NCBI GenBank assembly: GCA_024280895.1
Contig: JAJRPI010000072.1
Span: 1 to 64,000, forward strand
DNA: 64,000 nt
From: Alphaproteobacteria bacterium
Lineage (GTDB): Bacteria > Pseudomonadota > Alphaproteobacteria > Rhizobiales > JAKIUO01
Reading direction: 5' to 3'
Shown in pieces: positions 16,608 to 53,763 of this stretch; positions within the stretch are counted from its first letter, which is position 1; every line of letters starts with the position of its first letter. Both the position numbers and the translations under genes were made by a program. The notes under the pieces are model-generated. The model was not told where the DNA came from. It saw only the letters and a program-made list of their open reading frames with translations, and did not search any database.

Positions 16608-18887
16608 ATGCCATCACGCAAAGACAAACTTGGATGTACCGACGAAGACGCCCTTAATTTCCATACCATGCACGGCAAACCGGGCAAGCTGGAAATCTGC
16701 CCGACAAAGCCCATGGCAACGCAACGCGATTTATCGCTTGCCTATTCCCCAGGCGTCGCGGCCCCGGTGCGGGCCATAGCGGCGGATCCTGGCAAAGCCT
16801 ATGACTATACCAATAAGGGTAATCTCGTTGCCGTCATCACCAATGGCACCGCTATTCTTGGCCTTGGTGATCTGGGGGCATTGGCCTCCAAGCCGGTGAT
16901 GGAGGGCAAGGCCGTCTTGTTCAAGCGCTTTGCAGATGTCGATAGTATCGATATTGAAGTGGATACCAAAGACGCCGAACAGTTTATCAATTCGGTACGC
17001 TATCTGGGCCCAAGTTTTGGCGGCATTAATCTCGAAGATATCAGTGCGCCCGATTGCTTCATCATCGAACAAAAACTGCGCGAAGTGATGGATATCCCGG
17101 TTTTTCATGACGATCAGCATGGCACGGCGATTATCTCGGCTGCCGGCCTCATCAATGCCATTGACCTCACTGGACGCAATATCAAAGACATTCGCATGGT
17201 CGTAAACGGCGCGGGAGCTGCCGCTATTGCCTGCATTGAGCTGGCCAAAAGCATGGGCGTACCCCACCAGAATGTGACGCTATGTGATAGCAAGGGGGTC
17301 ATCTACAAAGGGCGCCAGGAGGGCATGAACCAATGGAAATCAGCCCATGCCATTGAAACCGACGACCGTACGCTGGAAGAAGCTATGACCGGCGCTGACG
17401 TGCTGTATGGCCTCTCGGTGGCCGGAGCTATCTCGGCTGAAATGGTGGATAAAATGGCGCAGCGGCCGATTATTTTCGCAATGGCCAATCCCGATCCTGA
17501 AATCACCCCTGAAGAAGTGCTGGCGGTCCGCCCTGACGCTATCATGGCAACCGGGCGCTCGGACTATCCCAATCAGGTCAATAATGTGCTGGGCTTTCCC
17601 TATATTTTTCGCGGTGCCCTCGATGTACGGGCCAGCGCCATCAATGACGCCATGAAAATTGCCGCCGCCCAGGCCCTCGCCGAACTGGCGCGCGAAGATG
17701 TGCCAGACGAAGTGGCCGTCGCCTATCAGGGAGAGCGTCCTCATTATGGCCCGGAATATATTATTCCAGCCCCGTTCGACCCCCGCCTGATCGCAAAAAT
17801 TCCCGCAGCTGTGGCGCGAGCTGCCATGGACACCGGTGTCGCCAGAAAACTGATCATTGATATGGACGCCTATGAAGCGCGCCTGTCAGCACGCCTTAAT
17901 CCCGCCGCCTCAACCCTGCAATCGATCTTTGCCAAGGTCAGACGCGACCCCAAACGAGTGGTGTTTGCTGAAGGGGAAGAAGAACAGGTGGTACATGCCG
18001 CCTATGCCTTTTTAAATGCCGGGCTCGGCCAGCCGGTGCTCGTTGGACGCGCTGAAAAAATCGAACAAGCCTTTGAAAAGGCCGGTATCAAGCGCCCGCA
18101 AGAAATCGAAATCCAAACGGTGGAAGCGGGAGAGAGCAACAAGCAATATGTTGATTTTTTCTATGAGCGTAACTGGCGCAAAGGCTTCCTTTACCGCGAT
18201 TGCGCCCGTCTGGTGCGCCTTGACCGTAACGTATTCTCTTCTTGCATGGTGGGCATGGGCCATGCCGACGCCATGATCACCGGCCTCACCCGCAACTGGT
18301 ATATCTCCTATAAAAATGTCCAATATGCTCTTGATCCAAAACCGGGCCGCACAGTTATTGGCGTCACCTTGGTGATCAATAAGGGGCGCACCGTGTTGCT
18401 GGCGGACACCGCTATTCACGAGACCCCCAGCCCAGAGCAGCTCGCTGATATCGCCATCGAGGCCGCCAGGGCGGCCCGCCGCTTTGGTTATGAACCTCGC
18501 GTGGCTCTTCTGGCTTATTCAACTTTTGGTTATCCCAAAGGACAAAGCGCCGGGCGTATGAAAGAGGCCATTAAAACCCTCGATCAGCGCGGCGTCGACT
18601 TCGAATATGACGGGGAAATGGCCGCCGACGTGGCCCTGTCTGCCGAGGCCATGTCACTCTATCCCAATTGCCGCTTGTCCCAGCCCGCCAATGTATTGAT
18701 TATGCCGGGGTGGAACTCGGCCTCTGTTTCCATGAAAATGCTGGAGACCCTTGGCGGTAGCACCGTCATTGGTCCAATGCTGGTGGGACTGGAAAAACCG
18801 GTGCAAATCGCCAAATTTGGAGCAAGTGATAGCGACCTGGTTAATCTGGCCGCCATTGCCGCCTATGACGCCGCGGACAAATCCTGA
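16608..18887 (+). CDS. maeB: NADP-dependent malic enzyme with C-terminal phosphotransacetylase-like domain
   Basis: Start MPSRKDKLGCTDEDALNFHTMHGKPGKLEICPTKPMATQRDLSLAYSPGVAAPV; malic enzyme core 'VFHDDQHGTAIISAAGLINA', then PTA-like 'RRDPKRVVFAEGEEEQVVHAAYAF'. Confidence 0.93.
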   Translation: MPSRKDKLGCTDEDALNFHTMHGKPGKLEICPTKPMATQRDLSLAYSPGVAAPVRAIAADPGKAYDYTNKGNLVAVITNGTAILGLGDLGALASKPVMEGKAVLFKRFADVDSIDIEVDTKDAEQFINSVRYLGPSFGGINLEDISAPDCFIIEQKLREVMDIPVFHDDQHGTAIISAAGLINAIDLTGRNIKDIRMVVNGAGAAAIACIELAKSMGVPHQNVTLCDSKGVIYKGRQEGMNQWKSAHAIETDDRTLEEAMTGADVLYGLSVAGAISAEMVDKMAQRPIIFAMANPDPEITPEEVLAVRPDAIMATGRSDYPNQVNNVLGFPYIFRGALDVRASAINDAMKIAAAQALAELAREDVPDEVAVAYQGERPHYGPEYIIPAPFDPRLIAKIPAAVARAAMDTGVARKLIIDMDAYEARLSARLNPAASTLQSIFAKVRRDPKRVVFAEGEEEQVVHAAYAFLNAGLGQPVLVGRAEKIEQAFEKAGIKRPQEIEIQTVEAGESNKQYVDFFYERNWRKGFLYRDCARLVRLDRNVFSSCMVGMGHADAMITGLTRNWYISYKNVQYALDPKPGRTVIGVTLVINKGRTVLLADTAIHETPSPEQLADIAIEAARAARRFGYEPRVALLAYSTFGYPKGQSAGRMKEAIKTLDQRGVDFEYDGEMAADVALSAEAMSLYPNCRLSQPANVLIMPGWNSASVSMKMLETLGGSTVIGPMLVGLEKPVQIAKFGASDSDLVNLAAIAAYDAADKS

Positions 18888-31985: not shown

Positions 31986-32744
31986 ATGGGTATCATTACT
32001 GCAATCAACACAGAACCCGCATCAACCCACCGATATTTGAACTCTGATCGTCAAAATAACGATATCCGCCAGTTCGGTGTCGCGGGCCTGATGGCCACCG
32101 CACATAGCTGCACTTACATGCGCGATATTGCCAGCAGCCGCAACCTTACGGCAGGCGAGACTTTGTTCTGGGAAGATGACCCAATCCAATATACCTATTT
32201 AATAATTGATGGCTCTATGAAAGCCTACAAGCTTTTACCCAATGGCCGCAGCCAAATCACCCGCTTCATCACAACAGGCGAAATCATCTCGTCACCCTTA
32301 ATCGATAACTACTCCTACAGCACCGAGGCACTTGGCGATTGCACCATTTTGCAATTGCCACAAAAACGCTTTGACAAAATCATGGCCAAGGATCCCGCCC
32401 TCATGAAGTCGATTTTTGGTAAATTATCGATTGAACTACAGCGGACCCAAAAGCAAATCCTCTTATTGGGACGCATGCCCGCAATTGAACGCGTATCAAA
32501 TTTTCTGCTCGATATCGCGCAACGGCAAAACCCTCAAACCGCCCATTTTGAATCCGATATGCTCATTACATTGCCAATGGCACGCGCTGACATTGCTGAT
32601 TATCTTGGTCTGACGATCGAGACTGTGAGCCGGGCTTTTTCGAAATTTCGCCGCGATGGCCTGATCGACTTGCCTCGCCCCAATCTTGTTCGCTTGCGCG
32701 ATCAAACAAGATTACGTGCGCAAAGTCATTCGCTGACGGGTTAA
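31986..32744 (+). CDS. Crp/Fnr-family transcriptional regulator (FixK-like, no Fnr cysteine set)
   Basis: cNMP-binding fold 'LTAGETLFWEDDPIQYTYLIIDGSMKAYKLLPNGRSQITRFITTGEII'; HTH 'MARADIADYLGLTIETVSRAFSKFRRDGLIDL'. Confidence 0.9.
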   Translation: MGIITAINTEPASTHRYLNSDRQNNDIRQFGVAGLMATAHSCTYMRDIASSRNLTAGETLFWEDDPIQYTYLIIDGSMKAYKLLPNGRSQITRFITTGEIISSPLIDNYSYSTEALGDCTILQLPQKRFDKIMAKDPALMKSIFGKLSIELQRTQKQILLLGRMPAIERVSNFLLDIAQRQNPQTAHFESDMLITLPMARADIADYLGLTIETVSRAFSKFRRDGLIDLPRPNLVRLRDQTRLRAQSHSLTG

Positions 32745-34598: not shown

Positions 34599-35165
34599 TT
34601 ACGTAATAGGCTTCCAAACACATTCCGGTTTTATCACCCGGCGCGGTTTTCCAGCTTTCAACATGATTAAACGACGACGTATTTTGAAATGATGAATGGA
34701 CTTGGTCGTGCAATAGGCGTGCGGGGCCAGTTTGTTCTTGAGGGCAAAACGGTGCGGCGTGATCGTCACCATCTTGGACATCGCCTCTTTGTTGGTGCTC
34801 TTATTATAACGAAACTCCATATGCAAAGGCCTTGCATAGGTCATACAATGACCCGTAATACTAAAAGGCTTTCCCAAATCTGCAATGGTGTCCTGTTTCC
34901 AATCGCTACAATCATTCTTTTTACTTTTATCACACCAGCGAAATTCGTATTTAATGGGTTTGATGCGGAGTTTGTTATATTCTGGGCTCACGAACAAAAC
35001 GCATTGCTTGGTTTTTTGAACTACCTTGCTTGCTTTTTGGGGAGCCTTTGCCTTTGACGCGCCTTCATTGCTGGCGTCTTTTGCCTGGGCAAAACCTTGC
35101 ATCCCAACCATCATACAAGCTGCCATTGCCAGTCCAGCCAAACTCTTTTTTGTAATGCCTGTCAT
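34599..35165 (-). CDS. Secreted/periplasmic Cys-containing hypothetical protein (188 aa)
   Basis: Signal peptide MTGITKKSLAGLAMAACMMVGMQGFAQAKD; six cysteines in the predicted mature region (CVLF, WCDK, DCSD, HCMT, YCTT, ECVW). Confidence 0.7.
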   Translation of the reverse strand: MTGITKKSLAGLAMAACMMVGMQGFAQAKDASNEGASKAKAPQKASKVVQKTKQCVLFVSPEYNKLRIKPIKYEFRWCDKSKKNDCSDWKQDTIADLGKPFSITGHCMTYARPLHMEFRYNKSTNKEAMSKMVTITPHRFALKNKLAPHAYCTTKSIHHFKIRRRLIMLKAGKPRRVIKPECVWKPIT

Positions 35166-35324
35166 TTTTCTATCCCTTGCTTGTTTATTTTGTTGCCAGC
35201 TATTGCTGACTTCAAAATAGTCAGTGGATCAACAATCAGGAGTGATGAAAATCACATTTACTTGGAATGTTAAAAGAGGGGAGCATGGAAGTGACTTTGC
35301 AACAAGCTTCATATGCAAATGATA

Positions 35325-52509: not shown

Positions 52510-52995
52510 ATGACCTCATCCAACGCACAAGACTTCATCGATAAATGGCACCAGATCTTTAAAAAAAATGATCCATCCTTGATGCTCCCCCTGATCCATG
52601 ACGATATTGAATTTTATTCGCCAGCCGTGTTCCAGCCAAAGCGCGGCAAGCCAATCGTCTTTGAGACCCTTGAGCGGGTATTTGGTATTTTTAAGGATTA
52701 TCGCGTCACCGATACCTGGATGAAGGGCAACGACGTCTTGTTCGAGTTCGAAACCCGTGTGGATAAATTCACCCTGCAAGGAGTGGATCGATTTACGCTT
52801 GATGAGCAAGGTAAAGTCGTGCAGATGAAAGTCTGGATCAGACCGCTCACGGGCCTCAAGGAATTGGCGCGTATCGTCGCCAAAGCAGAGATCGACGAGC
52901 ACCTCACCTCAAAAAGCGGTCCACAAAGAATGATTACCCGCGCACAAATCCGCACCACAAAACTGATCAACGGGCTCAAGGAAGGATTGAAATAA
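52510..52995 (+). CDS. SnoaL/NTF2-like fold protein
   Basis: 'FIDKWHQIFKKNDPSLMLPLIHDDIEFYSPAVFQPKRGKPIVFETLERVFGIFKDYRVTDTWMKGNDVLFEFETRVDKFTLQGVDRFTLDEQGKVVQMKVWIRPLTGL'. Confidence 0.8.
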   Translation: MTSSNAQDFIDKWHQIFKKNDPSLMLPLIHDDIEFYSPAVFQPKRGKPIVFETLERVFGIFKDYRVTDTWMKGNDVLFEFETRVDKFTLQGVDRFTLDEQGKVVQMKVWIRPLTGLKELARIVAKAEIDEHLTSKSGPQRMITRAQIRTTKLINGLKEGLK

Positions 52996-53005
52996 TAAAA
53001 CATGA

Positions 53006-53037
53006 GGAGCAAGCAGAAACTGTTTTCCGCTTGCTCC
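53006..53037. terminator. Stem-loop between convergent genes; possible bidirectional terminator
   Basis: GGAGCAAGC-N14-GCTTGCTCC, 9-bp perfect stem; weak T-tract. Confidence 0.4.
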
Positions 53038-53056: not shown

Positions 53057-53332
53057 CTAGTCTTCATCGACCTTGCAAATCTCATATTTGCGCAGCCAGT
53101 ATTTTTTCCCTGAACTCATATATTTTCCCTTGTAGTAAGAGCAGCTCTTCACAGAATAGGTTTTGTATTTGGTGCTTTTTGTGAACAACACATTATGATC
53201 TGTGCCTTCGGGTCCATTCCACCACAAAGGATCATATCCACCATAGCCCTTGCCACCAGCACTAGCGCTGGTTTGCATACTGGCAATGGTGATGACGCTT
53301 AATACCAGAGCGATAATCGATTTTTTCAGCAT
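53057..53332 (-). CDS. Small secreted protein, YDPxxWNGPEG family (paralogue 1)
   Basis: Signal peptide MLKKSIIALVLSVITIASMQTSASA; 'YGGYDPLWWNGPEGTDHNVLF...SCSYYKGKYMSSGKKYWLRKYEICKVDED'. Confidence 0.8.
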   Translation of the reverse strand: MLKKSIIALVLSVITIASMQTSASAGGKGYGGYDPLWWNGPEGTDHNVLFTKSTKYKTYSVKSCSYYKGKYMSSGKKYWLRKYEICKVDED

Positions 53333-53463
53333 TGTCTGTTCTCCTGACGATCCAGAGGGCCAAAGCCCGTTTCAACTGAAAAGAGGATATGAAAAAATAG
53401 CGCCGAGAAATGTGATGCAAATCACAGGTCGGGGCTTTGCAATCACAAAGCTCCCATATAAAT

Positions 53464-53763
53464 CTAGTTATCTGAGTCCAGACAGGCTTCATATCTGCGC
53501 AACCAGGACCGTCGGCCCGTTCGCAAATAATTACGGCTATATCTAGAGCAGGCTCGGCTTGCTTTATGCCGCCGAGATAATATTCTCATCAACAGGCCTG
53601 GCCGTGGAGTGCCCTCGAACAAGCCATTATAATCGGTAGAGCCTTCTGGCCCGTTCCAATAGAAGGGGTCATAGCCATAGTTGGAATTGCCAGCCACTGC
53701 AGGGCTTAAGGCGCTCAAGGACACTGTACCCAGTGTCATCAAGATGATGAATGTTTTCTTCAT
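53464..53763 (-). CDS. Small secreted protein, YDPxxWNGPEG family (paralogue 2)
   Basis: Signal peptide MKKTFIILMTLGTVSLSALSPAVAG; 'NYGYDPFYWNGPEGSTDYNGLF...ACSRYSRNYLRTGRRSWLRRYEACLDSDN'. Confidence 0.8.
   Translation of the reverse strand: MKKTFIILMTLGTVSLSALSPAVAGNSNYGYDPFYWNGPEGSTDYNGLFEGTPRPGLLMRILSRRHKASRACSRYSRNYLRTGRRSWLRRYEACLDSDN

Follow-up and report, generated by a model that had tools for sequence, protein, structure and literature searches.

Putative exported Cys-hairpin proteins of a Rhizobiales genome and a CRP-type promoter linked to a regulator-cyclase locus

Comparison with described cyclic-nucleotide modules

In Sinorhizobium meliloti, the genes of the regulator Clr and the cyclase CyaD1 adjoin smc02178; the SMc02178 protein is mainly periplasmic, has an unknown activity, and affects host infection (PMC5498481). 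Clr recognizes TGTTN8AACA / HGTYHCNNNNGRWACA, also written as HGTYHCN4GRWACA. In Rhodospirillum centenum, CgrA binds TGTGA-N6-TCACA with cGMP, turns on both its cyclase genes and a small ORF in divergent orientation, and controls encystment (PMC4681086). Mycobacterium CRP (Rv3676) and Corynebacterium GlxR bind GTGnnAnnnnnCACA and TGTGANNTANNTCACA (PMC4005916, PMC4254451), and both are global regulators with many sites.

The DNA analyzed here (the window, 64,000 nucleotides) carries two neighboring small genes, A and B, and a third paralogue, C, lies elsewhere in the genome. As in the Clr-CyaD1-SMc02177/SMc02178 system, where a Crp-family cNMP regulator and a cyclase lie beside the regulated genes for exported proteins (PMC5498481, PMC10127613), a Crp-type regulator, a class-III cyclase, and the gene for a small, putatively exported protein are clustered in this genome. 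By analogy, the A/C module resembles Clr-CyaD-SMc02178 in layout, but with a different regulator and operator: the site before A and C is TGTGAN6TCACA, unlike that of Clr, and the regulator, encoded on contig C39, scored far better against Mycobacterium CRP/GlxR than against Clr. Mycobacterium CRP and GlxR are its closest solved relatives and have the same operator type, whereas the exact sites of the form TGTGATN4RTCACA in this genome number only six. The likeness to CgrA comprises an alphaproteobacterial CRP homologue, the operator TGTGA-N6-TCACA, and a feed-forward on the cyclase; CgrA differs in its ligand cGMP and in its role in encystment, and the hairpin family described below was not found outside the order.

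The gene pair and its protein family

Two neighboring same-strand genes for paralogous small secreted proteins had been proposed in the earlier note. Both were confirmed on the minus strand, with the quoted peptides as stated, and the following features were assigned to them.

53057..53332, minus strand: gene A, a 91-aa small, putatively exported protein (ORF, paralogy, dN/dS, orthologues in G002 and G004)
53464..53763, minus strand: gene B, a 99-aa paralogue of A (ORF, orthologues in G001, G002 and G004, a B-like single gene in G003)
53204..53236, minus strand: YDPLWWNGPEG motif of A, found in this genus only
53641..53673, minus strand: YDPFYWNGPEG motif of B, found in this genus only
53075..53143, minus strand: predicted C-terminal Cys-hairpin of A, C64-x10-G75-x3-W79-x3-Y83-x2-C86 (conserved columns in 29 homologues, AF2)
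53482..53550, minus strand: predicted C-terminal Cys-hairpin of B, C72...C94 (alignment, AF2)
53006..53037, minus strand: Rho-independent terminator-like hairpin just after A, with a 14-bp stem

The genes are separated by a gap of 131 bp, and a good Shine-Dalgarno sequence was found ahead of each. A and B aligned end to end with 37% identity (E = 1e-21, BLASTP, single comparison), so that their likeness does not arise by chance. The gene order flhA, SnoaL-like gene, A/B, lipoprotein gene is kept in the congeners G002 and G004 (two lipoprotein genes); the SnoaL-like gene, which stays beside the pair in both, occupies 52510-52995 of the window. G003 holds one B-like copy and G001 holds B only, and in the G004 copy of A the reading frame shifts close to the start, perhaps through a sequencing error in that metagenome bin. 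A mobile or phage origin of the pair was considered and rejected: B had no phage matches, C had no plasmid matches, and no direct repeats flanking the pair were found.

The dN/dS values among congeners (Nei-Gojobori) were 0.13 for A, 0.18-0.35 for B, and 0.13 for C, and both A and B are under purifying selection. The WNGPEG and Cys segments were better conserved than the linker and the signal peptide in most congener comparisons, which bears out the proposal that the two motifs are under constraint. Each protein starts with an apparent N-terminal export signal ending in an A-x-A cleavage site, as judged by eye, in line with the signal peptides noticed earlier, and the predicted mature proteins are basic (pI 9.2 for A and 9.8 for B). 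AF2 models were built from 29 sequences for A and 11 for B. Their overall pLDDT was low (57 and 55, respectively), with values of 76-81 in the C-terminal block of A and 76-78 in that of B, and low values elsewhere. In these blocks, two helices were predicted (64-74 and 77-90 in A; 70-82 and 85-98 in B), which are parted by a TG turn. The cysteines are located at the start of the first helix and near the end of the second, and this placement at the open end of the hairpin makes a disulfide across it plausible. A Foldseek search with the A model gave no match, as expected at such model confidence. The disulfide that had been suggested between the two conserved cysteines is likely, and A and B are quite probably exported disulfide hairpins.

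The two motifs differ in their reach. Strong matches in a search with B were confined to the same genus, and a two-motif pattern scan of 84,980 genomes yielded 92 stretches, of which 4 encode relatives, all in same-genus metagenome bins; within the sensitivity of these searches, YDPxxWNGPEG is therefore found in this genus only. For the C-terminus, a profile of the first homologues matched 28 of the 298 genomes of the order, although the weakest of these (some in family f33) share the signal peptide and composition only. The matched proteins are mostly small and of exported type, with C-x2-[YFLW]...TG-x3-W-x3-Y-x2-C. Among 29 aligned members, C64, G75, and C86 (A numbering) are invariant, and W79 and Y83 are nearly so. 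The resulting signature, C-x10-G-x3-W-x3-Y-x2-C at the C-terminus of a protein of ~80-100 aa with a signal peptide, fits A, B, and C. In a class-wide sample of 385 genomes, of which 380 belong to other orders, the family alignment matched this genome alone; distant relatives under the threshold may be missed. As read from these sequences, the C-terminal motif defines an unannotated family of small, apparently exported proteins that extends over many families of one order.

The earlier note had joined both motifs into one family signature, and this part has to be revised, as WNGPEG belongs to the genus and the Cys motif to the order. The tandem pair stands as described, and C shares its Cys motif without WNGPEG. 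Homologues outside this strain are present in the congeners and, through the C-terminal motif, across the order. The view that no named family covers these proteins held: searches of Pfam, NCBIfam, PHROGs, and PDB sequences gave no family for A/B or their homologues, and the best Pfam/NCBIfam match of any member, to a His-motif family (E = 0.0019), was dismissed as reflecting composition. In the open-access literature, no description of the Cys-hairpin family or of its regulon was found.

Promoter, regulator and cyclase

The gap between B and A contains the sole perfect TGTGAN6TCACA of the window, which is followed by a putative -10 box.

53411..53426, minus strand: CRP-type operator of A, TGTGATTTGCATCACA, 94 bp upstream of the ATG, conserved before A and C orthologues
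53384..53389, minus strand: predicted -10 box of A, TATCCT, 21 bp after the operator, in a class II layout

The operator lies 94-98 bp before the start of the A and C genes in G000 (the genome under study), G002, and G004, and 102 bp before that in G028, which belongs to another family. It was located at -94 to -104 before A in three genomes, before C-type genes (five), and before the homologues in G028 and G213, and was also found with one mismatch in G006. B and the G003 gene have no such operator, nor do most members in the order's other families, so control of this kind does not extend to the protein family as a whole. In the alignment of 14 promoters, TAxxxT begins exactly 21 bp past the operator in 12, the exceptions being those in G006 and on contig C89, and this pattern was reached in 0 of 2000 shuffles; orthologous promoters among the 14 are not independent, while those of A, C, two RTX genes (RTX1 and RTX2), G028, and G213 largely are. 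An operator followed at 21 bp by TAxxxT is the class II layout of CRP-dependent promoters, in which the site is centered near -41.5. This layout was found before A, C, RTX1, and RTX2, but not before B, for which CRP control was rejected on a best composite match with 4 mismatches. A generic sigma-70 scan detected no promoter in the A/B region, which is in keeping with an activator-dependent -10 box without a -35 box. Judging from its operator and spacing, A is very probably regulated by a CRP-type protein.

The six TGTGATN4RTCACA sites of the genome compare with 0 for the reversed control. Perfect composites of operator, 21 bp, and TAxxxT number 4 in the 3.36-Mb genome versus 0.1 expected, and they precede A, C, and two tandem genes for RTX calcium-binding repeat proteins, all of which are exported-type genes. 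These and further candidate sites are as follows.

G000:C64:177606 and 179386: tandem genes for RTX calcium-binding repeat proteins (L057, L058), each with a perfect composite promoter
34599..35165, minus strand: gene for a 188-aa, apparently exported Cys-containing protein, a possible regulon member with a composite promoter 91 bp upstream
35214..35256, minus strand: one-mismatch CRP-type promoter of the 188-aa gene (predicted operator 35241-35256, -10 box 35214-35219)
G000:C39 ~18400-18640 (L156 7400-7640): remains of a second C-type gene, whose intact form is present in G001, G002 and G004

The 188-aa protein has no family match, and its promoter makes it possible that the gene belongs to the same regulon as A. 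Two other loci carry exact operators. L060 (G000:C89:25163) encodes a small, exported-type Cys-rich protein (MIIELIKNTAIGAVSL...) without a Pfam match and has a perfect operator with a weak -10 box. L061 (G000:C96:35799) holds the sixth exact operator, within a composite promoter with one mismatch, between a cystathionine-beta-synthase/cNMP-domain-like gene and an ornithine-cyclodeaminase-like gene.

Seven Crp/Fnr HTH loci above the cut-off were detected in the genome. The regulator at C39:13842-14531 matched the cNMP-binding domain (PF00027, 6.8e-21) and the Crp HTH (PF13545, 1.1e-14), and has the phosphate-binding cassette GEMGLIDEEPRSA and the recognition helix RENVSR, ARENVSRQLNRW. Among these loci, it alone pairs the GEMGLIDEEPRSA cassette with RExxxR. 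This helix resembles that of E. coli CRP, SRETVGR, and the best PDB matches of the protein were Mycobacterium CRP and GlxR. A FixK/FNR-like regulator gene with the HTH ETVSR is located at 32487-32720 of the window.

Gene C lies ~0.6 kb from the C39 regulator gene, with a class-III adenylyl cyclase gene 3-4 kb away. The regulator, a C-type gene, and the class-III cyclase lie within 6 kb in G000, G001, and G002, and within ~7 kb in G004, and G028 has the regulator, cyclase, and small-protein genes in tandem. A second C-type gene in G001, G002, and G004 is transcribed divergently from the cyclase gene, with an operator in between; its G000 relic has kept the operator, -10 box, and leader, and its reading frame runs for two codons before a stop. 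The one-mismatch site at C39:18491 was left out of the count, as it seems to be what remains of the promoter of this lost gene. Orthologues of the regulator were found in 51 of the order's 298 genomes. In family f12 (L090, L091, L094), a small, exported-type Cys-pair protein of another sequence type, CGWEIVRKKRYNRWGERVIVRKKVWVCD, is encoded behind the composite promoter beside the regulator gene; in f49, the promoter precedes another exported-looking protein, and a cyclase is also next to the regulator in f30; the wider linkage survey, which covered 1.5 kb, included many loci without a promoter-regulator link. These cases suggest that the link may predate the hairpin sequence under its control in this genus. 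In view of its domains and gene linkage, the C39 protein is probably the regulator of A.

Proposed explanation, alternatives and meaning

In the most likely reading, a cAMP-CRP module has A among its exported outputs. The class-III adenylyl cyclase would form cAMP, and the CRP-like regulator would then bind TGTGAN6TCACA near -41.5 and activate class-II promoters, by which the small exported hairpin proteins A and C and the two RTX calcium-binding proteins would be made together. B would be a diverged duplicate outside CRP-type control. A and B would each combine the conserved C-terminal helix-turn-helix hairpin, with one predicted disulfide, with a basic, aromatic, lineage-specific N-terminal part, and the hairpin proteins may serve as cationic parts of the envelope or matrix, either in the periplasm or on the cell surface. 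We regard this explanation as a whole (an order-wide hairpin family, A and C as outputs of the module, and an envelope role) as fairly probable. The homology, the selection, the layout of operator and -10 box, and the gene linkage are observed, whereas export, the disulfide, the identity of the bound regulator, cAMP as the signal, and the envelope role are inferred. The envelope or matrix role of A/B, for which export, charge, and co-regulation speak, is proposed tentatively.

The identity of the signal bears on the main alternative, in which a different Crp/Fnr-family protein binds the palindrome, or the module answers cGMP, and the output follows another signal. The genome has seven Crp/Fnr HTH loci, one of which (L067, C2:134524) has an RExxSR helix and could use the site, and CgrA of R. 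centenum uses TGTGA-N6-TCACA with cGMP (PMC4681086). The C39 regulator nevertheless is the only one that combines GEMGLIDEEPRSA with RExxxR, and its gene lies with family genes that bear the operator and with the class-III cyclase, which leaves this alternative unlikely. Ordinary housekeeping envelope proteins without special regulation, with a promoter likeness due to chance or ancestral residue, would agree with the operator-free B, G003 copy, and many members elsewhere, but such an origin is quite improbable given the exact 21-bp spacing from operator to -10 box in the independent promoters of A, C, RTX1, RTX2, G028, and G213, and the excess of perfect composites over expectation.

What A and B do could also be read in two other ways. 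Small, cationic, Cys-bridged, and exported proteins, one of them co-regulated with RTX repeat proteins, which are often extracellular, might be host- or neighbor-directed secreted factors, such as a symbiotic signal or an antimicrobial, rather than envelope components, and the analogous Sinorhizobium SMc02178 does affect host infection (PMC5498481). The latter protein is itself mainly periplasmic (PMC5498481), however, and the records from this genus are metagenome bins that name no host, no link of A/B to a secretion system was found, and the strong purifying selection shows no sign of an arms race; we consider this reading improbable. The earlier note also drew an analogy to BA14K (PF07886), which likewise is exported, occurs in the same order, and has a C-terminal Cys pair, as do A and B with cysteines ~21-23 residues apart. 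The analogy failed: PF07886 is absent from this genus but present in 84 of 121 genomes of the order, where the model works; 0 of 29 family members matched it at E<=1; hhalign of the family alignment against BA14K, whose conserved residues are different (C-x2-RYRSYDPxSGTYLGYDGxRHxC), gave a probability of 0.1 with one aligned column; and the predicted fold of A/B is helical. A BA14K-type lectin-like protein is accordingly a very remote prospect, and no evidence was found for the lectin role suggested for A/B.

Returning to the cAMP-CRP module, the finding on A and B is real and larger than the earlier note held; neither A's CRP-type promoter nor the connection with the regulator-cyclase locus had been observed there. 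Small exported proteins are common in this order, usually without any handle on function, and a Cys-hairpin family that has no Pfam/NCBIfam entry can now be described by its invariant signature and predicted fold and be tied to a promoter, with a likely regulator and signal. It is conceivable, though somewhat short of an even chance, that a compact cAMP-CRP locus of regulator, membrane class-III cyclase, and output gene has this undescribed family as its dedicated, operator-marked output in part of the order, where it would coordinate surface remodeling together with RTX calcium-binding proteins, and that other families of the order retain the promoter layout with a different small Cys-pair protein in its place. 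If a small exported protein is the output of this cAMP module too, as with Sinorhizobium SMc02178, the best-known counterpart, this suggests a recurring design, by which the role of such small exported outputs becomes a testable question.
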